From contig JAPNXP010000001.1 of assembly GCA_028753945.1 (NCBI GenBank), positions 15,118,501 through 15,182,500 of the forward strand: a stretch of DNA of 64,000 bases, given 5' to 3'. The notes under the pieces were generated by a model that saw only the letters and a program-made list of their open reading frames with translations, had not been told where the DNA came from and ran no database searches. The stretch comes from Hexactinellida sp. DTS-2022. Its lineage: Eukaryota > Porifera > Hexactinellida. Positions 8,051-61,181 of this stretch are shown here, piece after piece (the stretch's first letter is position 1; the number at the start of each line of letters is the position of its first letter). A program made the position numbers and the translations under genes.

Positions 8051-8504
8051 CTGAAAATGAAGCTGAAATTTTAATAACTCCTCCAGTTCCCATCGGATTG
8101 TCTTCTATAAATAGTTTTAGTCATTGTTGATAGAACACTACAACAAGCTTTATGTTGAAAAAATCTGTGAATTTATGTCTCTTATACTAGTTATCACAAA
8201 TATGATGCTTGACAGTTGATATTTGGTCAAACAGACAGATGCGGTCTTACCTTACTAGCCACTTTGTAGTTGACTTTAAACTGAAGAGTTTCATGTTGAC
8301 CTGTCGTCGATTTCGCGGGTCACACACAGGTGAAAATATTATCCATTATTTTGAGGAGATATATTGGCATTATTTGGTATAACTGGAAAAGTAGATAGAG
8401 TAATTAGTGATAAATGCTAGTAATATGAAGAAAGTTTCGATATTAGTAATACTGGGGATCAAGATGATAGTGTGACGAGTCACCTAGACCTTCAGGGGTA
8501 CTAT

Positions 8505-8585
8505 CCTTGGGAAAAGTAGTAGGCGGCAGTACGGGGCGCTATATGAGCAACTATGTGATAAGATCCTGTCAGTATGACTAGTAAT
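8505..8585 (+). repeat. Repeat end with inverted partner at 13440-13694
   Basis: Blocks GGCGGCAGTACGGGGCGCTA, ATGAGCAACT and CCTGTCAGTA recur in reverse orientation at 13440-13694, where a hAT MITE splits them. Confidence 0.65.
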
Positions 8586-8708
8586 TCATTGCACCGACAT
8601 TAATGCCAGTGCTTAATATGTTGTCATGAGTATAGACTGCAATTGGGCATTCCCCAGCCAAGGGTACTTGCCGTCCACTAGCAGCCCAACTCATGGAGAT
8701 GTCATGTA

Positions 8709-8759
8709 GGTGGTTTCGTCCTATCTCAAGGACTCATCAGGAGGGTAACCCTCGACCAC
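8709..8759 (-). ncRNA. Type III hammerhead ribozyme, copy 1
   Basis: Read on the minus strand in order: stem III 5' arm GTGGT, cleavage triplet ending GTC, stem I GAGGG with loop TTA and CCCTC, the invariant CTGATGA, stem II GTCC/GGAC with an 8-nt loop, the invariant GAA, and the stem III 3' arm ACCAC. Every core residue of the hammerhead consensus is present, including the A-U pair next to the cleavage site. It opens on stem III. Predicted to self-cleave just after GTC. Usually such ribozymes process transcripts of small repeats, but here the host element is not certain. Confidence 0.85.
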
Positions 8760-8920
8760 ATTCTGCCCATTGGCTCTATGCCCGTCGGCATCTGGTACCA
8801 GTCGTGCTGCCAGGCTGCACCTACGGTATCTCTCCTCAAGGTGCCTCGTACTGACACCTACCCAAGGCTCCCAACCCTAGGTACTCCTGAGGACTGGTGA
8901 GTATATATTATAGTGTCATG

Positions 8921-9092
8921 CAGGGTCGGCGGAAGCAATTATAAAGTGGTCAGGCCATGGCTTGACCGGCGTAACTAGTGACGTAAGAGTGGTCAGGCTA
9001 TCGGCCTTGAGAAAAGTGGTCAGTGGTTTCGTCCCATTGCAGGGACTCATCAGGAGGGTAACCCTCGACCACCATGCGTACTGCCGGCCCTG
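8921..9092 (+). mobile_element. hAT-like MITE enclosing ribozyme copy 2
   Basis: Termini CAGGGTCGGCGGAAGC and TGCCGGCCCTG resemble those of the MITE at 13476-13632. Internally AGTGGTCAGG and the inverse CCTGACCAC-type motifs occur. No exact target duplication was found, so the borders may have been rearranged by the ribozyme-bearing sequence. Confidence 0.5.
9022..9073 (-). ncRNA. Type III hammerhead ribozyme, copy 2
   Basis: Same fold as copy 1, about 314 bp away on the same strand: stem III GTGGT/ACCAC, cleavage after GTC, stem I GAGGG-TTA-CCCTC, core CTGATGA, GAA. Stem II is longer and different (GTCCC/GGGAC with a 6-nt loop), so pairing is kept while sequence changes. A phrase ACCAGTCGT follows each copy on the plus strand, which suggests a repeat unit larger than the ribozyme. 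Confidence 0.85.
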
Positions 9093-9458
9093 TGCCTCTG
9101 CACAACCCGTACTAACCATGTGTCCTCACACATGGTTACCAGTCGTAGTACAGTGCTGCCAAGTCTCCGTAAATTTACGTAGATTACGTAAATATGACCC
9201 CTATCTACGTGTCTACGTATCAAGACTTATTTCTACGTATTTCTAGCGAAATATATTTAAGACTTATTGTTTAACAAATAATTGCGTATTGTTCTTACTA
9301 GTGAACCACCATATCATTACGTATTTAATTTATGTTTTATAATATGTTAAATAATAACATAGTGATGAATTATTCCAATCGCAGAATACTCTGATTCAAA
9401 ACAGTTGCACAATTCTTAATTAGCTAAATTAAATATTACTTTGATAGTTTGATACATG

Positions 9459-12400
9459 TGTTTTGACAAAAACTGTCCCCCCTACAAAACTTGTCCGGGG
9501 GGACACTTTTTGACAAATATCCATGGTCCATGTCAAAAACTGTCCCCCCTCTATTTTTATTGATTAGTCATATCGTGAAGTTTAAGGTTTCTATTTGCGA
9601 TCGAAATGTTTTGGTAAATGTAATCATTACGCAAGCTATTGCGCGAGTTTTGGTTACGCAGTTATTTGCACGAGTTATTGCGCGAGTTATTGCGCAAGTT
9701 GTTAGGCGTAGGTTGTCTTCCAATAAGTTATGTTATTGTAGTTTGTCTAAGTAGGAGTACTATTTAATTACATAGTTAAAGTTGGCAGCTGCAAATTTAT
9801 TCTAATCTAAACACTAACTCGAATTACCGTACTTCTAAGTTCTAACGCTACAATATTATGGATCCCCTCGAATACGAGTCGATTTCAGCATACCTCACTT
9901 CTGACAGATATCCACTAAATTTCACCAAAGATCAAAAGAGAAATTTACGCAGAAAAGCGTCAAAATTCCGCATCTTTGGGGAGAAACTAGTTAAGCCCTT
10001 CGAAAATCAACATTTGATCGTAATAATGCGAACCGAGGTGGGGGCCATTCTCACAGAAATTCACGACAACTCTGGCCATCAATGCATTCGGTACACTCAT
10101 AGCATTGCAAAAGATCGGTACTATTGGCCCAGTATGCTCAAGGATATCGAGCTCTATGTACAAGCCTGTGCCCGTTGCATCAGAAATCAGCCCAGTTTGA
10201 AAAGTCCCACGGTTCCTCTACAACCGCTTCCAGTAATCACCAAAGTTTGGTTCCGCGTTGGTATGGATCTGACTGGGCCTCTGATAGAATCGAATGGGTA
10301 CAAGTACATATTAACCGTTATCGATCATTTTACAAGATGGATTGAGACGCGCCCTCTTCGTACGAAAGAAGCTATCGAAGTAGCCAGAGGTTAGTTTTCT
10401 ATTTACTGCAGACAAGGAGCACCCGTTCAAATAATTAGTGACAATGGTACTGAGTTTACAAACAAGTTACATAAATCTTTACACGAAGCATATGATTGCA
10501 AATTAATATTCTCAACGCCATATCACCCTCAGACCAATGGGCTAGTAGAATCGTCGCATAAAGCTTTGAAGCGATCCCTTGTAAAAACTTTAGATGGGAA
10601 AAAAGAGAATTGGAGTGACTATCTGGAAGAGATAACTTTTTCATTGAATATTCGACCTCGACATACAACACAGTTCTCTGCCTTTGAGTTGATGCACGGC
10701 TCTCGTAAACCTCGACTTCCAATCCAAGCTGAGAATCTTGCGGCTCTATATCCTGATGCTGGTATCTTAGACCTGGACGAATGGGCTGGAGAGGAGCAAA
10801 TAAATGAATTCATCGACACTATGCAAGAAGCTCAAATGGATAACCAAGAAATTGCCGGAGAATCTCTTAAACAATTCTAAAACATTGATGAAAAGGCAAT
10901 TTGATAAAAGATTGAACCCGGTCACTTTAAACACAATCGAAAAAGGAGATCAAGTTCTTATAGAAAATGTATATAATAGGAAAAAAGGAGGCAAGCTAGA
11001 AGATAAGTGGATTGGCCCATATCTTGCAGATGAAGTAAATCCTACTAATGTCCGTGTAAGCCGAAATAAATCAATCCAACGTGTGAAGAAATCTAAAACA
11101 AAGCTCTGGAAAAAACGATCATTACCACTTCCAGATTCACCTAACAGCAAACGTTTACGTTTAGATGGAGATTTCGATTCAAACGAAGAGGAAATTATTG
11201 CCTCTCCTTTTCTTGGGCAAGAAGAAATCATACCTGTTTCGTCAAACAAATCTAACAGAAGTCGAGAAGAAATTTTGCAAGTGCTAGTTTCATTCAAGAG
11301 TAAAATCATAAACTCCATTCTAACTTCAACTCCTTTATCCCCACTTCACTCTCAACTTCATATCAGAAGCCACTTTGATTTTAGAGATCTAATGGATTGG
11401 AGATATGCTCACTATCCTTCAATCAACAGTGAAGAGTTCGAAATGGATCTCGATACCACGCAAGAGATAACTGAAGTCCTAACACAGTTTTATTTGGAGA
11501 GCTATAAGGTTAAAATTCCAGAGGTACCAGACACCTCTCAAGACTTTGAATTCTCCACTAAATGGGCCACGGATAGTATGAATTATGCAACAAAAGTTCT
11601 ACTACCTGTGGTCAGGAACTTCTGGCCGCACACTTTGAACCTTCGGTAGCTTCAGAATATCAAAAATTACCACCACTTCAAAGATTTTCTAATTCAGGAG
11701 CTTCATTTGAGGAAATGTGCCCCACTTGGGGAGGTCACTATGATGGAGTAAAATTAACTAACACGTGTCAATCGATAATTTTATCACATTATTAAGTCTA
11801 CACAAAGAGGCCATATTAGCAGCATTCGATCTAACTGGAGATTCGCCAAATCCTACACTTCGATCTATCTTCTCAATGGTTGATGAACAAATTTTTGACA
11901 AACTTAGACTGTGGACAGCTCCTAAGCTAGGAATGTCAATTAGCGACTCTGAATGCAACATGTTAGGATATGAGGGGAAAATGGTCAAATTCTTGCAAGA
12001 TAACAATTTTTGTCAAGACATTTATAGAATTGTATTTCAATGCTGGAGTTGTTGCTGTGAGTCAGAGAAAAGACTCAATCTAACTTCAGTCTTGGAATTT
12101 AAAACTAATTGTCAATTTTCAATCGACTACCAAATCAATTCAGCTTATAACTGTTTGACGTGTCGAGAGCCTAATGCCAACATAGAGAGTTTGTCAAAAG
12201 AATTTTCTTCAGTGCCTCCTCTTATTATTCTTGAAGTTGGACATCTTTTAATTAATTAATTAATTAAACACTAGTACTATCCGTGAGAGCAGTATTGAAG
12301 ATCATATTAGGATCACTCATCAAGAGAAGCAACTACATTACTCACTCCTCGCTTACACAATTCATTCTGGAATACACTTCCATATGAAGACCAAGTACCG

Positions 12401-12902
12401 TGATATCTGGTATGTATATGATGGAATGGAAAGGCCGAAATTAAAGCAAGCTGAAAGGATAATCCATGATAGTTCTCAAGGTCGAATAAACTGCGTCTTT
12501 TACGTATTGACCTCTCAAACACTATCCACTTGAAAACGATTTTGACAATGTGAGACAATAAAAATACTATTATTTGATTTTTGTTACTAAGTATTCTTTG
12601 TTTTAGTGATCAATTAAAACAATTGAGCTAAACTTGTACACGATTAACTTGTTGCATGAAACATTTTTCCATCGTGGGACTTAAAATCATATCATGTAAG
12701 TTGAGTTTTGTACGCAACATTGTGAACTCTAATTTACCTTGAATACTGAATAGAAGAAATGTTGGTAACTAGATTGATTGCCTTCTCCATATCGCGAGGC
12801 ACTGGTAGATACAAGAACTACTTTTATGATGATGTGATAATTCGATTTAATTTTCTGAGTAATTCACATTTATATAAAAATATCTAATTAATAAGTACGT
12901 AG

Positions 12903-12933
<31 letters not shown>

Positions 12934-13233
12934 AAAACTTCATTAAATTTCACCAAAAATATACAAAATTGCACGAAAAAATATTAATGCGACTTTGTTG
13001 GAATATGTTTAACTTAATTAAGTAGCAATCATCATTATTGTGATTATATATTATATTTCACCAAAACATTTCGATCGCAAATAGAAACCTTAAACTTCAC
13101 GATATGACTAATCAATAAAAATAGAGGGGGGACAGATTTTGTAGGGGGGACAGTTTTTGACATGGACCATGGATATTTGTCAAAAAGTGTCCCCCCGGAC
13201 AAGTTTTGTAGGGGGGACAGTTTTTGTCAAAAC
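9459..13233 (+). mobile_element. Ginger-type DNA transposon, fossil
   Basis: A 3,775-bp element with long terminal inverted repeats of about 170 bp (ends TGTTTTGACAAAAACTG / CAGTTTTTGTCAAAACG) flanked by CATG on both sides, a 4-bp target duplication. Coding parts in order: integrase with an HHCC-type zinc-binding region and a DDE core near 9.9-10.9 kb, a basic C-terminal region near 10.9-11.6 kb, and a downstream region near 11.8-12.3 kb with paired Cys motifs and PPLIILEVGHL that recalls ubiquitin-specific protease finger/palm sequence. No gag or reverse transcriptase is present, and the inverted ends plus 4-bp duplication fit Ginger rather than an LTR element. The coding region is broken in several places. 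Near 9.62-9.71 kb a repeated TTATTGCGCGAG-like motif is present. Confidence 0.8.
12911..12932 (+). repeat. (AC)11 microsatellite inside the Ginger element
   Basis: Perfect AC dinucleotide run of 22 bases. Confidence 0.95.
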
Positions 13234-13439
13234 GCATGCAATCAGTGAGTATATCTTATTGTTTACAAGCGCGGAAGCACCTTTATAATTGATTATTCAT
13301 ACAAATAATTAATTTATATTATTTGATTAAGCAAATTAAGAACTTTTGGGTTGCAGAAGGAATTTTAGCATGATCCGTAAATAATTTTTTTCTCCGTAAA
13401 ATTTTATGGTCAATCTCCAGCAATTTATCTGAACTCACT

Positions 13440-13694
13440 TTGCAGCACTGAGTCGTACTGACAGGTTCTTACTACCAGGGCCGGCGGAAGCTCGTGAGAG
13501 GTGGGGCGGCCTTGTATTATGATGATAATTGTGAGGATTGCAGAGTCAAAAAACACGCCCGGGAAATTTCAGAGTACCAAAAAATCACAGGAAAAGTGGG
13601 GCGGCCCAACCGCCCCACTTCCGCCGGCCCTGCTTACTACAGAGTTGCTCATGTAGCGCCCCCGTACTGCCACCTACTACCTTTCCCAGAATTT
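13440..13694 (-). repeat. Inverted partner of 8505-8585, split by a hAT MITE
   Basis: Reads on the minus strand as GGTGGCAGTACGGGGGCGCT, ATGAGCAACT, then, beyond the MITE, CCTGTCAGTACGACT, matching the left-hand copy. The pair brackets the ribozymes and the Ginger element. Confidence 0.6.
13476..13632 (+). mobile_element. hAT MITE, 157 bp, target duplication CTTACTAC
   Basis: Termini CAGGGCCGGCGGAAGC and CTTCCGCCGGCCCTG are exact inverses over 14 bases, and the 8-bp sequence CTTACTAC is present at 13468-13475 and 13633-13640. Inside are inverse GTGGGGCGGCC / GGCGGTTGGGCC-type blocks. No coding capacity. Confidence 0.9.
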
Positions 13695-14307: not shown

Positions 14308-14446
14308 TGCCATTGACTAGTATGGATTCACTATTACGCTATTTTAAATTTTTTATCAGTGTAGCTTGAAATATTCTCTTGTTGTTATATGATATTTACT
14401 TTTTATTGTATTTTGTAATATCCATACCTCTACATCGGTTCCACAG

Positions 14447-15670
14447 ATGGCTAGTGCTAATGTGCCAGCAGAGAATCCATTCCTGACACAGCTAGAGAGG
14501 GTGCGAGTAGAGCTACGGGAGAGAGTAGCCAGAGCTCATCAGGTGCTGCGAGAGAGAGAGACAGCATTGCTGTCAGAGCTGCAGCAGCTAGAGGATGTCT
14601 ACAGGGGAGAGGGAGTTGCTGGACAGATTCTAGAGTTGTCTCTCACGAAGGAACAAACTATCTCCACTCTACAGAGAAACGATAATCAAGAATTCCTCGA
14701 ACAGAGTGTGTCTCTACTGGATGCACGCATGAGAGAGCTAGAAGCTAGTCTCGAGACAGCTAGAGACAGGATGAGACAAGTGGAGCTGGAGTGGGATACA
14801 AACATAGAAGGAATACTGAGTAGGACAGGATCGATTCTAGTGAGAGGAGTAGCAGACTACAAGGAGAAAGGAAATCCTATAAAGGTAGCTGGGAAACACA
14901 GGAATAAAACCTCTTCCACAGCTGGAGAGTTCTATTATCCAAATTCAATCGCAATTGACTCTGAAACGAATATTATTTATATTTGTGATGGAGGTAATAA
15001 CCGGGTACAAGTCTTTAATGAATCTTTAGGATTCTTATTAGCATTCAGTGAAGAGATGAATGACCCAGTTGGTATCTGTATCCATCTTAACAAAGTCTAC
15101 GTCACACAGTATGATGCTAATTCCCTCACTGTACACTCTACTGAAGGTAGATACATACAGTCAGTTGGGAGAAGAGGCGAGAAAGAACTGGAATTTTATT
15201 CTCCAACAGGTGTAGCTGTATCAACTGTGAATAATCTAATATACATTTGTGACTATTACAACAATCGCATTCAATGTTTGAATTTAGTTTTAACTTTCCA
15301 TTCATTCATTCCTAATGTTGACACCCCAAGAGATATCAAGCTAACTCCTCAGAATATTATTGTATTGACAAATAGAAATCCATGCATTCGTTTCTATAAC
15401 TACTCTCATCAGCTGATTAGAGAGATAATACCTCGAGGAGAAGGCAATCAGGTGATTAATCCTTATTGCTTCTGTCTCGACAGAGATTTCAATATTCTAT
15501 TGACTGACTTCTCAGCTGATTCTGTTCTCATATTCTCTAGCAGAGGAGAACTGCTACACAAGTTTGGGAAGAGAGGAGACCTTATCTCTCCTATTGGGAT
15601 AGCTACGGATAGAGAAGGTAGAATTATAGTTATGTCTCGAAACCCTGAACATTGTATTCAGATATTCTGA
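14447..15670 (+). CDS. Coiled-coil plus NHL-repeat protein (RING-less TRIM/NHL type), 407 aa
   Basis: Single intact exon. Residues about 10-130 form a long coiled coil rich in Arg, Glu and Leu (ARAHQVLRERETALLSEL, LDARMRELEASLETARDRM). From about residue 150 a six-bladed NHL propeller follows: AGEFYYPNSIAIDSETNIIY with CDGGNNRVQVF, then LEFYSPTGVAVST with CDYYNNRIQCL, and a final blade ending RNPEHCIQIF. The N-terminal RING and B-box of true TRIM proteins are absent, so ubiquitin ligase activity is not expected; a multimeric scaffold or RNA/protein-binding role is inferred. The last blade lacks about five residues that the paralogue at 60018 keeps (EGRGD). The ATG follows TTCCACAG, a splice-acceptor-like sequence, so a non-coding first exon or a trans-spliced leader is possible. 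Paralogues: 18674, 21341, 60018. Confidence 0.85.
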   Translation: MASANVPAENPFLTQLERVRVELRERVARAHQVLRERETALLSELQQLEDVYRGEGVAGQILELSLTKEQTISTLQRNDNQEFLEQSVSLLDARMRELEASLETARDRMRQVELEWDTNIEGILSRTGSILVRGVADYKEKGNPIKVAGKHRNKTSSTAGEFYYPNSIAIDSETNIIYICDGGNNRVQVFNESLGFLLAFSEEMNDPVGICIHLNKVYVTQYDANSLTVHSTEGRYIQSVGRRGEKELEFYSPTGVAVSTVNNLIYICDYYNNRIQCLNLVLTFHSFIPNVDTPRDIKLTPQNIIVLTNRNPCIRFYNYSHQLIREIIPRGEGNQVINPYCFCLDRDFNILLTDFSADSVLIFSSRGELLHKFGKRGDLISPIGIATDREGRIIVMSRNPEHCIQIF

Positions 15671-23078: not shown

Positions 23079-23185
23079 TATTTGTATGAGTTGTTACTTT
23101 GTCATTTATGGTATTCCTTTGTTAGTACGTATTATAAATTATCTTATATTCTACATGGTCAAGACACCCAATTGAATTTTGTCTG

Positions 23186-24538
23186 ATGTCGAAAAGGATA
23201 GCAATTATAGGAGCAGGGCCATCTGGACTCTCAGCTATGAGAGCGTTCCGAATGGCAGAATTAAAAGGCGAAATTTTCCCGGAAATAGTTTGCTTTGAAA
23301 AGCAAGAGGATTGGGGTGGTGTATGGAATTACACATGGCGAACAGGCACTGATGAATATGGTGATACAGTGCATAGCAGTATGTATAGAAATATGTGGTC
23401 GAATAATCCGAAGGAGATTGTAGAATTCCCTGATTACACGTTTGCGGAGCATTTTTGTAAGCCAATTCCTTCATTTTTACCACGAGCGGTACTTCTTGAT
23501 TACATATTAGGGAGAGCAAAGAAATCGGATATAAGACAGTTTATCAAATTCAACATGCGAGTTGAAAGTGTTGTGTGCATGAATGATAAATTCATAATTC
23601 GTGTATGGAATAAAAGAGAAAATTGTGTGTTCTCAGAAGCATTTGATTATGTGATTGTCGCAAGTGGCCACTATTCAGTCCCGCATATTCCAGAATACAA
23701 AGGAATTAATTCATTTCCGGGTCGTATTATCCACTCACACGATTTCCGAAATGCAGAACAATTCAAAGGTCAGGATGTAATAATAATTGGTAGTGCACTT
23801 TCTGCAGAAGATATTGCTATTCAATGTTGGAAGTATGGTTCTAAATCTGTTACAATTGCTTATCGAAAAAGACCTAGGAAATTTAATTGGCCCGAAGGTA
23901 TTATAGAGAGACATCTTTTAGATCACATGGAAGGGAAAACAGCAGTGTTCCACGATGGTTTTCGTCAGAATGCAGATACACTGATCTATTGCACTGGTTA
24001 TTTATTCCATTTTCCTTTTATGGAAGATAAGCTGAAACTGAAGAATGATGCACAACTGAAATATTGCCCGGGACTCTACAAGGGAGTAGTTTGTCAAAAT
24101 AATCACAGACTATTTTATATGGGAATGACCTGTCTATTGTACCCTTTGATTAACATCGACATTCAAGCTTGGTTCTTGCGTGATGTAATTTTAGAGAGAA
24201 TCATTTTACCTTCGAATGAAGATATTCAGAAAGATATTTGCTTTTGGATGAAAAGAGAGGAAACTTGTAGGATGTCTATTGAGAAATTCTACTTTCAGAC
24301 TGATTATCTCAGAGATCTTTTGACACACCTGAGTGATTATGCTAAACCTAATTTTGACATACTTTCACAGTATTATTTAATTCGACAAGAGCATAAAAAG
24401 AAGGATGTTCTCACATATAGGGACCATTCTTACACTTCGGCTACAACTGGAATAGTCTCTCCTAATCGTGCTGTAAAATGGATTGATGCGAAATCTTTGG
24501 AGACGTTGGACACATTTTTAGAATCCGAATTTATCTAG
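23186..24538 (+). CDS. Flavin-containing monooxygenase-like enzyme, copy A, 450 aa
   Basis: Intact single exon. FAD-binding motif IAIIGAGPSGLSAM at residues 5-18, the FMO phrase FEKQEDWGGVWNYTW near 37-51, the FMO-identifying motif FPGRIIHSHDF near 178, the NADPH-binding glycine motif VIIIGSALSAEDIAIQ near 195, and the C-terminal LIYCTGYLF segment near 268. No N-terminal signal or C-terminal membrane anchor is evident, so it resembles the shorter, soluble FMO-like enzymes of about 450 residues rather than vertebrate microsomal FMOs of about 530. Expected chemistry: NADPH- and O2-dependent oxygenation of a nitrogen or sulfur nucleophile; substrate unknown. Nearly identical paralogue at 53918-55270 with 19 substitutions. 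Start chosen at MSKR because the conserved pairing with copy B begins there. Confidence 0.9.
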   Translation: MSKRIAIIGAGPSGLSAMRAFRMAELKGEIFPEIVCFEKQEDWGGVWNYTWRTGTDEYGDTVHSSMYRNMWSNNPKEIVEFPDYTFAEHFCKPIPSFLPRAVLLDYILGRAKKSDIRQFIKFNMRVESVVCMNDKFIIRVWNKRENCVFSEAFDYVIVASGHYSVPHIPEYKGINSFPGRIIHSHDFRNAEQFKGQDVIIIGSALSAEDIAIQCWKYGSKSVTIAYRKRPRKFNWPEGIIERHLLDHMEGKTAVFHDGFRQNADTLIYCTGYLFHFPFMEDKLKLKNDAQLKYCPGLYKGVVCQNNHRLFYMGMTCLLYPLINIDIQAWFLRDVILERIILPSNEDIQKDICFWMKREETCRMSIEKFYFQTDYLRDLLTHLSDYAKPNFDILSQYYLIRQEHKKKDVLTYRDHSYTSATTGIVSPNRAVKWIDAKSLETLDTFLESEFI

Positions 24539-39770: not shown

Positions 39771-39875
39771 ATTAGTATGATTCGCATACTGTTCAGTATT
39801 TCTTCGTACTTTACATTACTTATTAAAGTATCAGTATACTTCCAATCTTAACATAAATACTGAACGTATTCCGCG

Positions 39876-42800
39876 ATGGCTACTCCCCTCACGATAGCGA
39901 TTCCGCCTCTGCAAGAACGGCAAACAATAGCGACATGGGAACCGCTGTTTATCTCAGCAGTGTCAGGGATAGACCAAAAGGCAGCAGTGAAGCTCCTAGC
40001 GGCGTACGTAAAGAGAGGTAGACTCGAAGAGAAAGTCGTGTTAGTGGCGGTGGAAAAGGAGACACTTGCAGAAGCTTTCGCTTACCTCAAAGAACGTCTG
40101 GATCCGGAAGAAGACATATTCGAGGCTGCAGCTAAATTCCGCAGGATGGCTTGGAGCCCTGGGGAACCGATCCAGGATTTCTTCACGCGCTATCTCGAGG
40201 AGGCGGTGAAGGCGGGACTCTCAGCCAAGGCTGCATGCGTATTCATGGCTCCCAGAGCCCAGTGGAAATTTAACCCAAACTGAAGGATTGGATCCGGCCA
40301 AAGGAAAATGACCTGTCTGAAGACGCCGCACTACAATTCGGAACAGTAATCCGAAGAATGTTAACGGAAAAAGGTATCTCGGTAGACCATGGATATCGAG
40401 TACAGCACGTTACGGAGACCTCACCTCTCGTTGAGCCCTCACCCCTCCTCGAGCCAGACAAGCCAGGAGAAGCAAGCGACGATTCTAATGAACCTGTGTA
40501 CCCGAAGGTGCAACAAGTTAGAGACTACAAAGGAAGGCCTGAACGTCTGCAGTGATATTGCTGTGGTTAACGTGAACATCTAATACGCTATTGTCCAAAC
40601 AAGCGGTGTACGATTTGCGGGACGTTAGGCCATAGGCCGTCCGAGTGCCCACGCAAACCGAGGAGAGCAGGGGGACAGAGAGACACCAGAGCTACGTTTA
40701 CAGGGGAGCAGAGAGAACCAAAGACTACTATTAAGAATCGAATATTCTTGGCTCAAGGAGACGAAGATGCCGTGACGATCGAGGTGTACATAGGTCCCCA
40801 TAAAGTTGAAGCTATGTTAGACACAGGTGCCCGGCCCAGCGTGATTGACATCAAGACAGCACATAGACTGGATCTTCCGATTATTCCCGCGGTGCGCCGA
40901 GTCTACGTCTCTGTAACAACCCCGTTAGGGTTACCGTTTACGTGGAGGCCATGGTCCAAGTTGGCAACAGGAGCCCTGTGATGGAATGGATCGAAGTACT
41001 AGATAGTGACGAACCGACACTACTGCTTGGGAGGAGGTTCATGGAACAACTGGGGCAAGTTACCTTCGACTGGGTTAACGGGCGAGTCCGTTTCGGGCGG
41101 TCTTGGATAACCGTACATAATACTTCAAGTGGAGCTACACCACTGGCACGACCCAGGGTGGCTAAACAAGACGAACCCGAGGTCGCTACGATTAGTGCCG
41201 GTATTACACGATGATATGTACCAAGCTCACCCCCGAGGAGAAAGAGACGCTTGAGCAACTAACGAGGGACTTCAAGCGCGTATTCGCCCTCCATCCCAAG
41301 CGTCCAGGAAGATGCCTTATCGATGAGCCACATCGCATACAGACGGACAACGCAGCACCCCAGAGATCACGGCCAAGGAGAGTGCCCCTACATTGGGAGC
41401 CAGAGATTTCAAGGCAATTGGAGGAGATGCTAGCTGCCGATCCTCCCATTTGTAGACCCAGCAATTCACCTTGTTCCTCCGACATAGTCTTGGTCCAGAA
41501 AAGGGATGGGACGTTACGATTTGCAGTAGACTACCGTCGGTTGAACGCCGTTACAAAGCGCGACGAGTACAGTCTTCCAAATCCGCAATCGATTTTCGAT
41601 CGTCTCGCTGGGAATCGTTATTTCTCAAAGTTGGATGTTGCCTCCGCTTATTGGTCGATTCCTGTCCACCCGAGCGACATCGAGAAAACGGCATTTCATA
41701 CCCCTAGGGGACTGCATGAGATGAACGTAATGCCTTTCGGGCTATGCAACGCCCAGGCCACCTTCCAGAGGGTGATGGACCGTACCCTAGGGAACATCCC
41801 TAATTGCGAAAGCTATGTGGATGACATTTTGATATATTCCCCGACCTTCGAAGCTCACGTACAACACATAAAGGCGGTGTTTAACCGGCTGGGAGAGTCT
41901 GGCCTCTTACTACGCAGGGTCAAGTGCAAGCTGGGCCAGGGCCACAGATCTATCGAGTTTCTTGGACACAAGATAGCCGAGGAAGGGCGAATAATCTGGT
42001 CGTTGAAATTCCAAAATGGGTCATACCTAGAAAAAATTCATACAAAGCGTATTTTACTATCATTAGAAGCAGAATTTTTCGTAGAATAACATATCCAAAA
42101 TCCGCTAAAATCCGTTGTGGCGAAAATTTTTTACACGGGTGGCAGTGTCGGCCATTTCATAGTAAATCGCCGACATTTTCGTAACTAACTTTCTCAAATT
42201 AATTCTAATCAACTTATAATCATCATCCCTCTAAAATGGGATTGTCGAGATTTAGCTGAAAATCTTCAATTTTAGATTTATCTCGATTAATCTCGACAAA
42301 TCCCATTTTAGAGGGTCGATATGTGTATAATTATACTAGTGGAGTTGAACGAGGGGTCACTAGATTGGATAGGCACACAATTTGAGAATTGAATGTTCGT
42401 ACATTCCTGACGTGTAAAAAATTTTCCCCACTACGGATTTGAGCGGATTTTGGATGTTATTCTACGAAAAATTCCGCTTCTAATGATACTAAAATACGCT
42501 TTGTATGAATTTTTTCTAGGTTCAACCTTCCAACGACCAGACTAGAAGCCCAGTACCAGAATACCTAGAGAGGCTCAAGTCGTTCCCGGTGCCCAGAACG
42601 CTTACGGAGCTACAGCGGTTTATCGGTTCAGCAAATTATTACCGGTGCTATATTGAGAACATGTCTCTCATTGGTCAACCTCTATATTCCCTGTTGCGAA
42701 AGGGAAAAGTGTGGAATTGGGACGCAGCGTGCCAGAAGGCGTTCGAGGAGCTACGCACAAGACTAGTACGCGAAACCCGTGTCCCTCGCTCATCCTAAAT

Positions 42801-53825: not shown

Positions 53826-53917
53826 ACCCCCTGTATAACCCCTGATTATTCCTTTCTTAGTATTTTTAAATTATCTTATATTCTACATTGTCAAGACACC
53901 AAATTGAATTTAATCTG

Positions 53918-55270
53918 ATGTCGAAAAGGATAGCAATTATAGGAGCAGGTCCATCCGGACTCTCGGCTATGAGAGCGTTCCGAATGGCAGAATTAAAAGG
54001 CGAAAATATCCCGGAAATAGTTTGCTTTGAAAAGCAAGAGGACTGGGGTGGTGTATGGAATTACACATGGCGAACTGGCACTGATGAATATGGTGTTACA
54101 GTGCATAGCAGTATGTATAGAAATATGTGGTCGAATAATCCGAAGGAGATTGTAGAACTCCCTGATTACACGTTTGCGGAGCATTTTTGTAAGCCAATTC
54201 CTTCATTCTTGCCACGAGCGGTACTTTTTGATTACATTTTAGGGAGAGCAAAGAAATCGAATATAAGACAGTTTATCAAATTCAACATGCGAGTTGAAAG
54301 TGTTGTGTACATGAATGATAAATTCATAATTCGTGTATGGAATAAAAGAGAAAATTGTGTGTTCTCAGAAGAATTTGATTATGTGATTGTCGCAAGTGGC
54401 AACTTTTCAGTCCCGCATATTCCAGAATACAAAGGAGTTAATTCATTTCCGGGTCGTATTATCCACTCACATGATTTCCGAAATGCAGAACAATTCAAAG
54501 GTCAGGATGTAATAATAATTGGTAGTGCACTTTCTGCAGAAGATATTGCTATCCAATGTTGGAAGTATGGTTCTAAATCTGTTACAATTGCTTATCGAAA
54601 AAGACCTAGGAAATTTAATTGGCCTGAAGGTATTATAGAGAGACATCTTTTAGATCACATGGAAGGGAAAACAGCAGTGTTCCACGATGGTTTTCGTCAG
54701 AATGCAGATGCGCTAATCTATTGCACTGGTTATTTATTCCATTATCCTTTTATGGAAGATAAGCTCAAACTGAAGAATGATGCACAACTGAAATATTGCC
54801 CGGGACTCTACAAGGGAGTAGTTTGTCAAAATAATCACAGACTATTTTATATGGGAATGACCTGTCTATTGTACCCTTTGATTAACATCGACATTCAAGC
54901 TTGGTTCTTGCGTGATGTAATTTTAGAGAGAATCATTTTGCCTTCGAATGAATATATTCAGAAAGATATTTCCTTTTGGATGAAAAGAGAGGAAACTTGT
55001 AGGATGTCTATTGAGAAATTCTACTTTCAGACTGATTATCTCAGAGATCTTTTGACACACCTGAGTGATTATGCTAAACCTAATTTTGACCTACTTTCAC
55101 AGTATTATTTAATTCGACAAGAGCATAAGAAGAAGGATGTTCTCACATATAGGGACCATTCTTACACTTCGGCTACAACTGGAATAGTCTCTCCTAATCG
55201 TGCTGTCAAATGGATTGATGCAAAAGCTTTGGAGACGTTGGACACATTTTTAGAATCCAAATTTCTATAG
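53918..55270 (+). CDS. Flavin-containing monooxygenase-like enzyme, copy B, 450 aa
   Basis: Intact paralogue of 23186-24538 with 19 substitutions in 450 residues (96 percent identity). All motifs are unchanged: IAIIGAGPSGLSAM, FEKQEDWGGVWNYTW, FPGRIIHSHDF, VIIIGSALSAEDIAIQ and LIYCTGYLF. Changes are scattered and often conservative (for example I to V, F to Y, D to N), none in a cofactor motif. An in-frame ATG 30 bases upstream exists only in this copy through a few base changes, so the start shared with copy A is used. Upstream sequence diverges from copy A just before the coding region (G-rich here, Tigger MITE there), so the two genes probably have different promoters. Confidence 0.9.
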   Translation: MSKRIAIIGAGPSGLSAMRAFRMAELKGENIPEIVCFEKQEDWGGVWNYTWRTGTDEYGVTVHSSMYRNMWSNNPKEIVELPDYTFAEHFCKPIPSFLPRAVLFDYILGRAKKSNIRQFIKFNMRVESVVYMNDKFIIRVWNKRENCVFSEEFDYVIVASGNFSVPHIPEYKGVNSFPGRIIHSHDFRNAEQFKGQDVIIIGSALSAEDIAIQCWKYGSKSVTIAYRKRPRKFNWPEGIIERHLLDHMEGKTAVFHDGFRQNADALIYCTGYLFHYPFMEDKLKLKNDAQLKYCPGLYKGVVCQNNHRLFYMGMTCLLYPLINIDIQAWFLRDVILERIILPSNEYIQKDISFWMKREETCRMSIEKFYFQTDYLRDLLTHLSDYAKPNFDLLSQYYLIRQEHKKKDVLTYRDHSYTSATTGIVSPNRAVKWIDAKALETLDTFLESKFL

Positions 55271-59345: not shown

Positions 59346-60017
59346 ATTCTGCTCCTCCGTATACGTTCCATGTATTCGTGCGTGTAACTGTTTAGGAACT
59401 CTGATAATATGGAGATAGGCGATAAGTTAGGAACATGCCACCCTTCTGCACCATATAATTCAGTATTTGTTGATGTAGTATTTATTTTAATTCTGTAGAT
59501 GCATTTTTGAATCCCTTCGAATTATGAGTTTAAGTTCCCTCAATAGACCATGGTTATGGGTCAGAGTGAATGGTGGAATTTCTGAATTTTTCGTCGAAAT
59601 GACTGAATGGTGGAAAGTGGTGGAATTTCTAAAAATCGACTTAATGGTGGGAGTCAAATAGTCCACAATTCATGGTAGATTAGTTAAGCCACCAAAGGTA
59701 AATTTGGTGGCTTAAATAAGATCTTTGGTGGCTAAGGCCACCAAACCACCTAATTTGTCGAGCACACACGAGCATGCTCTATGTATCTTATGAGCATGCT
59801 CTGTGTACTTTTTGTTATATGAATTTTCCATCATTCAGCTATTTTCCACCATTTTCCACCTTTCAGTCAGACCATGAACACTCAAAGGAAGTCATTTCCT
59901 ACGACTAGAAAATTGACTGAAATACTAATTTTGAGCCTTATGTGTATGATAGTTATACTAAGTAGTTATTACGATTCACTTGTATTAATTAAGTAATTAT
60001 TCCACTTCTTATATTAT

Positions 60018-61181
60018 TTGTTCTACTTTCGACCTCATCAGGTGCTGCGAGAGAGAGAGACAGCACTGCTGTCAGAGCTGCAGCAGCTAGAGGATGTCTA
60101 CAGGGGGGAGAGAGTTGGTAAACAGATTGATCAGCTGAGAATAGCGAAAGAACACAACATTGCTACTCTTACGAATAATGAAAATCAGGAATTCCTCGAA
60201 CAGAGTGTGGCTCTACTGGATGCCCGCATGAGAGAGCTAGAAGCTAGTCTCGAGACAGCTAGAGACAGGATGAGACAAGTGGAGCTGGAGTGGGATACAA
60301 ACCTAGAAGGAATACTGAGTAGGACAGGATCGATTCTAGTGAGAGGAGTAGCGGACTACAAGGAGAAAGAAAAGCCTATAAAGGTAGCTGGGAAACACAG
60401 GAATAATACCTCTTGCACAGCTGGAGAGTTCAAATGGCCTCATTCAATCGCAATTGACTCTGATACGAATTATATTTATATTTGTGATGGAGGGAATAAC
60501 AGAGTACAAGTCTTTAACGAATCTTTAGAATTCTTATTCACATTCAGTGACAATATGAATGACCCACTTGGTATCTGTATCCATCTTAACAAAGTCTACT
60601 TCACACAGTATGATGCTCATTCCCTCACTGTACACTCTACTGAAGGTAGATACATACAGTCAGTTGGGAGAAGAGGCAAGAAAGAACTGGAATTTCATTC
60701 TCCACTAGGAGTAGCTGCATCTACAGTGACTAAGCTAATTTACATTTGTGAATTCTACAACAATCGTATTCAATGTTTGAATTTAGATTTAACTTTTAAT
60801 TCACTCATTCCTAATGTTGACAGGCCAAGAGATATCAAGCTAACTCCACAGAATATTATTGTATTGACAGCTGGAAATCCATGCATTCGATTCTATAACT
60901 ACTCTCATCAGCTGATTAGAGAAATAATAACTCGAGGAGAAGGCAAGCAGGTGATTAATCCTCTCTACTTCTGTCTGGACAGAGATTTCAATATTCTGTT
61001 GACCGACTTCTCAGCTAATTCTGTTCAGATATTCTCTAGCAGAGGAGAAGTGCTACACAAGTTTGGGAAGAGAGGAGAGGGAAGAGGAGACTTTATCTAT
61101 CCTACTGGGATAGCTACGGATAGAGAAGGTAGAATCATAGTTGTGTCTCGAAACCCTGAACATTGTATTCAGTTATTCTGA
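60018..61181 (+). CDS. Coiled-coil plus NHL-repeat protein, 5'-shortened paralogue, 387 aa
   Basis: From CATCAGGTGCTGCGAG (about 60039) on, it is close to the gene at 14447 (coiled coil LDARMRELEASLETARDRM and all six blades, closing with RNPEHCIQLF). The first roughly 30 residues of that paralogue are missing and replaced by MFYFRPH, read from unrelated upstream DNA. The last blade is complete here (GKRGEGRGDFIYPTGIATD), unlike at 14447. Either the true first exon lies upstream and is spliced (TTCTACTTTCGACCTCATCAG resembles an acceptor ending in CAG) or this is a 5'-truncated copy. The downstream frame is fully open, which argues for recent origin or function. It lies right after segmental copy B, but the 14447 gene does not follow copy A. 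Confidence 0.75.
   Translation: MFYFRPHQVLRERETALLSELQQLEDVYRGERVGKQIDQLRIAKEHNIATLTNNENQEFLEQSVALLDARMRELEASLETARDRMRQVELEWDTNLEGILSRTGSILVRGVADYKEKEKPIKVAGKHRNNTSCTAGEFKWPHSIAIDSDTNYIYICDGGNNRVQVFNESLEFLFTFSDNMNDPLGICIHLNKVYFTQYDAHSLTVHSTEGRYIQSVGRRGKKELEFHSPLGVAASTVTKLIYICEFYNNRIQCLNLDLTFNSLIPNVDRPRDIKLTPQNIIVLTAGNPCIRFYNYSHQLIREIITRGEGKQVINPLYFCLDRDFNILLTDFSANSVQIFSSRGEVLHKFGKRGEGRGDFIYPTGIATDREGRIIVVSRNPEHCIQLF

Follow-up and report, generated by a model that had tools for sequence, protein, structure and literature searches.

Type III hammerhead ribozymes of a hexactinellid sponge as probable remnants of a non-autonomous LTR-type retrozyme family

We propose that two hammerhead ribozymes encoded in a 64,000-nucleotide stretch of the genome of the sponge Hexactinellida sp. 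DTS-2022 (hereafter, the window) belong, as remnants, to a large family of small, non-autonomous LTR-type elements that carry one type III hammerhead in each terminal repeat, in the manner of the LTR retrozymes of plants, a reading to which we assign a probability of about 0.7. The hammerhead units have moved and duplicated 4 bp of target sequence, and their ribozyme fold has been kept with covariation; the sequences also suggest a purine-rich tract before the 3′ repeat, and we infer self-cleavage, circularization, reverse transcription, an LTR retrotransposon as helper, and a snap-back step. Judged from its sequences, the family would work like LTR retrozymes, closest to the plant form, and we do not claim full membership for it. 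In the consulted parts of three accounts (PMC7229834, PMC7761336, PMC4918200), retrozymes fall into two sets, the LTR elements of flowering plants, which bear type III hammerheads, and the non-LTR elements of animals, whose hammerheads are of type I. An animal with plant-like retrozymes in many near-identical copies would break this division, and would bear on the origin of LTR retrozymes and perhaps on that of viroid-like circles. The compact 112-Mb sponge genome would also be a place where the helper element and the step from circle to DNA could be traced.

The sequence-only reading of the window had pointed to two minus-strand type III hammerheads, and the covariance-model search that it called for bore this out: cmscan of the 64-kb window returned exactly two matches to RF00008 (Hammerhead_3; Table 1) and zero other Rfam families over gathering score. 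Both copies have the CUGANGA..GAA core and three stems, with stem III the open one, a three-stem type III fold is predicted for each, and at the level of sequence they are confirmed as genuine; their folding energies are unremarkable by themselves (z = −2.05 and −1.30). The predicted cut sites, just after GTC on the minus strand, lie 313 nt apart. Stem II had been described as varied but paired, and pairing is indeed kept, although stem II has five pairs in both copies (GTCCT/AGGAC and GTCCC/GGGAC), so that the difference amounts to one compensatory change of the fifth pair, T-A in one copy and C-G in the other, and not to an additional pair.

Table 1. Ribozymes and mobile-element fragments of the hammerhead cluster, in window coordinates.
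Feature	Positions	Strand	Evidence or remark
Hammerhead 1	9021..9074	-	Predicted cut 9067/9066; RF00008, 60.7 bits, E 4.6e-11 (cmscan, 64-kb window); three-stem fold
Hammerhead 2	8708..8761	-	Predicted cut 8754/8753; RF00008, 61.6 bits, E 2.6e-11 (cmscan, 64-kb window); three-stem fold
LTR fragment with hammerhead 1, 3′ part lost	9021..9146	-	90% alignment to L074
LTR with hammerhead 2	8622..8892	-	3′ end CATGACA at 8622; 5′ end uncertain
Piece of an unrelated MITE with a CAGGG..CGGCGGAAGC terminus	8921..9023	.	Separates the two LTR fragments
5′ part of a hammerhead LTR, ribozyme absent	8472..8584	+ (opposite orientation)	Starts TGTGACGAG, as the LTR of L039/L044
Inverted partner of part of 8508-8562	13633..13688	-	Inverted repeats I4 and I5, 87-93%

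These ribozymes belong to a family spread through the host assembly (112.4 Mb, 18 contigs). The core pattern CTGATGAGTCC-N4..24-GGACGAAAC had 192 exact genome matches versus 0 for the reversed control, which excludes chance, and the 177 places listed from among them fall on 17 of the 18 contigs. A profile search of the genome with RF00008 gave at least 68 scored matches, 64 of them over the cut-off, a lower bound in that 68 of 12319 first-look candidates were scored. No match to the type I model RF00163 appeared at E ≤ 0.001 among the 73 of 14702 candidates scored in the genome, and no control genome matched; the type I hammerhead typical of animal non-LTR retrozymes was thus not encountered, the matches going to RF00008. 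Single places made up 148 of the 177 listed, and 29 lay within 1 kb of another. Among the listed places, adjacent pairs less than 1 kb apart were on the same strand in eight cases (spacings of 238, 313, 385 (twice), 486 (twice), 527 and 653) and on opposite strands in nine. The 237-nt repeat of locus L077 recurs at 21 more places with at least 98% identity over at least 235 nt. About ten hammerhead places lie in 12.9-13.9 Mb of contig C1, including L052 and L053 (13.05 and 13.36 Mb), which have an identical LTR with identical flanking bases and look like a segmental duplication.

Across 32 distinct 56-nt ribozymes (four distinct copies of other length were excluded), 95.5% of cells were paired and 5 of 16 pairs had changed on both sides, with a covariation score of 0.142 versus 0.069 after shuffling and 0.014-0.048 with partners slid, values biased towards pairing because the copies are mutually related and the scanner that selected them requires every stem to pair. 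The outermost pair (columns 3/54) is unpaired in 20 of the 32, leaving a stem III of 5 bp in most copies; in the subfamily of L042, L045 and L078 stem III has just ~3 bp, a possible weakness. Covarying ribozyme stems imply selection on an RNA.

The hammerheads sit in repeats of ~230-325 bp that start with TGT and mostly end in CA. Starts at the loci examined were TGTGATGACGG, TGTCATGATGG, TGTGACGGA, TGTGACGAG, TGTTGTGAATGAG and TGTTATAGACATT, and the ends included CTCATAACA, CTCATGACA and CTCACCACA. Such repeats occur alone, as repeat-internal-repeat elements, as one tandem pair (L040; 238-nt period, TSD CTCC) and as inverted pairs (L010, TSD ATAC; L043, ATAT; L048, CGTA). Two complete elements, L042 (TSD CTAC) and L045 (ATAG), consist of two direct repeats, alignable over 231 nt at 97.8 and 97.4%, with a period of 385 and a short internal part, and the second repeat is directly preceded by AGGACTAACAAGGGGGGTGA or AGGACTAACAAGGGGGTTGA. 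The same plan recurs in another subfamily at L082 (repeat spacing 311, TSD AAAC), where the core of the first hammerhead is broken. In the composite L039, five hammerhead repeats, three of them in one orientation and two in the other, are flanked as a unit by CTAT. Type III hammerheads therefore lie within terminal direct repeats at L039, L042, L045 and L082, and genuine head-to-tail units elsewhere in the genome than the window have repeat or hammerhead-to-hammerhead spacings of 238, 311, 385 (twice) and 486 nt.

Of the 15 bases that directly precede the 3′ repeat, purines account for 12 in L042, 11 in L045, 12 in L039 and 11 (by eye) in L082, compared with 6, 7, 10 and 11 of 15 in control flanks before 5′ repeats, so that the purine tract is a weak sign. 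In longer elements (L004, L039, L049 and L059) the repeat end reads CATAACA or CATGACA and pairs with TGTTATG or TGTCATG through the hairpin that comes next; similarly built hairpins stand at the centre of the inverted pairs of L010, L039, L043, L048 and L056. A conserved motif resembling TGGACTCGCGAGC follows the boundary hairpin in L042, L049 and L059 and takes an altered form in L004 and L045, and a single pattern search for a tRNA matching the PBS-like TGGACTCGCGAG gave 0 matches. In three of the four direct-repeat elements (L042, L045 and L082, from two subfamilies) the tails of the 5′ and 3′ repeats are unlike; the arms of the inverted pair at L043 likewise end in unlike tails.

Mobility is recorded in the flanks: an exact 4-bp TSD borders 17 of the 22 insertions with both outer ends recognized (18 of 23 including L082), whereas 20,000 shuffles of the 22 averaged 0.95 and never exceeded 7. 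The comparison carries some bias, since the TSD scan itself supplied the start of L060 and the flanks were in sight when several reference ends were determined. The L078-type start was set independently, since 14 other places, including the 5′ repeats of both L042 and L045, match from within two bases of it. Drawn from 72 cores examined, the 22 insertions comprise 15 solo repeats, two complete elements, one tandem pair, three inverted pairs and one composite; left out were L053 as a duplicate of L052, L004, L041 and L056, whose outer end is not known, and cores that were truncated or of types whose ends were not recognized. The five of 23 without an exact TSD are L002, L050, L055, L063 and L076, and of these L002 and L063 miss by one base.

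Ends and duplications of this kind also fit an explanation that we consider unlikely, namely that the repeats are MITEs mobilized by a Ginger element, a cut-and-paste DNA transposon whose transposase is of the integrase type, and that the hammerhead is a passenger, at most trimming read-through transcripts. TGTNR termini (TGT..ACA) and 4-bp TSDs would be expected of such elements, Ginger-like integrases exist in the sponge genome, and inverted pairs and complete elements with unequal tails are easier to understand if the units move as DNA. The RNA-level selection implied by the covarying stems speaks against a passenger. Ginger1 DNA transposons were reportedly described by Bao, Kapitonov and Jurka in 2010. 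As far as the accessible part of PMC2836005 goes, Ginger1 shares TGTNR ends and a 4-bp TSD with the sponge family but duplicates CCGG or CCGT, has TIRs of 40-270 bp, encodes a transposase and has no ribozyme described, whereas the sponge repeats are otherwise in these respects: CCGG, CCGT or ACGG is found in 0 of the 18 exact TSDs, and the inverted ends of a single unit span ~5-8 bp (by eye), long arms being present in the inverted pairs. A solo hammerhead repeat at L080 (4215-4452, TSD GATA) is inserted in a Ginger1-like gene with an OTU domain, and this Ginger1 has CCGG followed by TGTARCAGCC at both ends (by eye), unlike the hammerhead repeats. On account of these differences in target sites and ends we reject Ginger1 as the mover; the target-site mismatch concerns Ginger1, and Ginger2 has an AT-rich target with a 4-bp TSD. 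At two more places (C14:4210857 and C14:1128225) an LTR similar to that of L080 and an integrase-like match lie 640-810 bp apart, and Ginger copies may thus have spread with the insert.

A further explanation, that the repeats are solo LTRs or deletion derivatives of a coding LTR retrotransposon with a hammerhead in its own LTR, strikes us as improbable. It would agree with the TG..CA ends and 4-bp TSDs and with the predominance of single copies among the listed places, but no coding element was seen between hammerhead repeats in the loci examined. One candidate span, between two direct hammerheads 5.3 kb apart on contig C1, proved to be a minisatellite and not a large element.

Under the retrozyme reading that we prefer, the transcript of a two-repeat element would cut itself at both hammerheads, and the freed, highly self-paired RNA (238-486 nt in the observed units) would be circularized by a host ligase. 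Circular folds between the predicted cut sites are more stable than those of 40 shuffles in 4 of 4 canonical units tested (z of −3.5 to −6.6): L040, 238 nt, z = −3.54; L042, 385 nt, z = −3.91; L045, 385 nt, z = −3.54; and L039, 486 nt, z = −6.59. The reverse transcriptase that copies the circle would come from an LTR retrotransposon acting as helper, a role for which we identified no element, and an integrase would insert the cDNA through its TG..CA ends with duplication of 4 bp. The extent of copying would decide whether a solo repeat, a tandem pair or a complete element resulted. The 5′ repeats of L042, L045 and L082 are without the 3′ tail, so circles cut from these elements would miss the element's own 3′ end; the unequal tails could arise if uncut transcripts served as template, if the structured tail were skipped in copying, or through movement as DNA.

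The strong hairpin at the boundary between LTR and internal part may in addition let the DNA fold back and prime its own synthesis, yielding inverted repeat pairs; a DNA end at the hairpin that primes a copy of its own LTR would be the simplest reading of the central hairpins. At L048 the two LTR arms match the L066 repeat at 100% identity and the central arms retain mismatches, as snap-back predicts. The arms of the inverted pair at L010 are 87.5% alike, giving no sign of a recent snap-back and remaining neutral on an old event, and two loci do not amount to a test. Our literature search for inverted LTRs formed by self-priming turned up a paper on fungal Copia elements. The joint reading, that the family is a recently active one of type III LTR retrozymes belonging to an early-branching animal and that self-priming at the junction hairpin, in contrast to the plant form, makes inverted LTR dimers regular products, we advance tentatively, at slightly less than even odds. 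On that reading LTR retrozymes would predate the separation of plants and animals, would have passed from one kingdom to another, or would have originated twice.

Comparison with known systems places the sponge family nearest to plant LTR retrozymes. As outlined in the consulted part of Cervera, Urbina and de la Pena 2016 (PMC4918200), those elements carry type III hammerheads in LTRs of ~350 bp and have 4-bp TSDs, a tRNA-Met PBS and a PPT; shared with the sponge family are type III hammerheads in terminal direct repeats, TG..CA-type ends, 4-bp TSDs, a short non-coding internal part, and the occurrence of solo repeats and direct dimers. The sponge family differs in its animal host, in hammerhead-to-hammerhead distances of 238-486 nt instead of 600-1000 nt, in having a hairpin after the LTR and no tRNA-Met PBS that we could see, in the commonness of inverted LTR pairs, and in 5′ and 3′ repeat tails that are often unlike. 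With the animal non-LTR retrozymes treated in the accessible part of Cervera and de la Pena 2020 (PMC7229834) it shares an animal genome and small hammerhead units (~170-400 nt), but those contain type I hammerheads without LTR, PBS or PPT, whereas here the motifs are of type III and lie in terminal repeats flanked by TSDs. Penelope-like elements and Terminons likewise have hammerheads in the repeats of an animal retroelement, but according to the portions consulted of PMC7229834 and PMC7761336 these are minimal type I motifs and not canonical type III ones. A search of mainly openly accessible literature, largely at title level, found no type III LTR retrozyme from a sponge or other animal. 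The sponge ribozyme pattern had 0 matches in prokaryote genome contigs, and its stem I pattern had none in viral contigs (IMG/VR), where the core and stem II pattern matched one contig, L081. On inspection by eye, the arrangement there looks like that of a type I hammerhead, which would make the match a matter of chance or convergence and not the same ribozyme. Several 60-94-nt repeats with a hammerhead-like core, probably of type I, lie between phage-like genes at 9600-11480 of this contig.

At the window locus itself, the hammerhead cluster is nested and decayed, and the pair is a broken-up, rearranged remnant of the hammerhead-LTR family. The alignment of the hammerhead 1 fragment to L074 runs from 71 nt upstream of the ribozyme through the ribozyme end, and its GAAACCAC abuts the MITE fragment directly, at 9023. 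For hammerhead 2, positions 8709-8892 match L010 and L011 at 79-81%, and the LTR 3′ end is placed by motif alone. The MITE piece has matches of 85-96% at other loci, with modal boundaries at 9023 and 8921; its terminus is complete in L012 and L016, and a hammerhead core with GAAA was present in 0 of the 26 loci fetched for this match. The sequence-only reading had likened the pair, from its spacing of about 314 bp, to the dimers of small ribozyme-bearing retroelements. A type III motif in an animal and a retrozyme-like mobile family both stand, but the spacing fails as a repeat unit, since the two copies have no common register outside the 50-nt ribozyme and their sole other common piece (23 nt, 74%) recurs at an offset of 341 instead of 313. 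That the pair is itself a functional dimer giving a 313-nt circle is hardly credible: both ribozymes are intact in sequence and head to tail, and 313 nt could be freed from a transcript that spans them, but the 313-bp interval joins different LTR fragments across the MITE piece (~103 of its 313 bp), neither terminal direct repeats around the hammerheads nor a TSD or purine tract/LTR junction was recognized at the locus, and the fold predicted for the 313-nt RNA is no more stable than those of shuffles (z = −0.81; circular fold, 40 shuffles).

Between the two inverted LTR fragments at the outer ends of the cluster lies a Ginger-like integrase element (9455-13238) with inverted repeats at 9455-9618 and 13057-13238 and ORFs from 9846; these match Integrase_H2C2 over the cut-off (60.7 bits) and rve below threshold, and the 40 homologues of the integrase include two from the glass sponge Oopsacas minuta (65-66% identity). 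The outer inverted repeat is ruled out as the long TIRs of a hammerhead-carrying Ginger-like transposon, because 4 of the 10 other matches of 8470-8625 lie just upstream of listed hammerheads, at ~90-200 bp for the LTR fragment, and 0 of 10 have any of the three closest integrase copies (C4:4397k, C10:1626k and C1:10406k) nearby. Inside the right-hand LTR fragment sits a further MITE (13472-13632) that has CAGGGCCGGCGGAAG at its ends, is flanked by the 8-bp repeat CTTACTAC and, in our view, resembles hAT elements.

Elsewhere in the window, Gypsy-like gag-pol fragments (aspartyl protease, RVT_1) occupy a GC-rich stretch at 39864-42089, and no LTR pair was found between the 36-kb and 48-kb positions of the window. 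Two almost identical ORFs for 466-aa flavin monooxygenase-like proteins (23138-24538 and 53870-55270) represent a recent duplication, and NHL-repeat ORFs at 14393-15670 and 59997-61181 form a similar duplicate pair; protein searches returned 4930 homologues for the monooxygenase and 486 for the NHL ORF.
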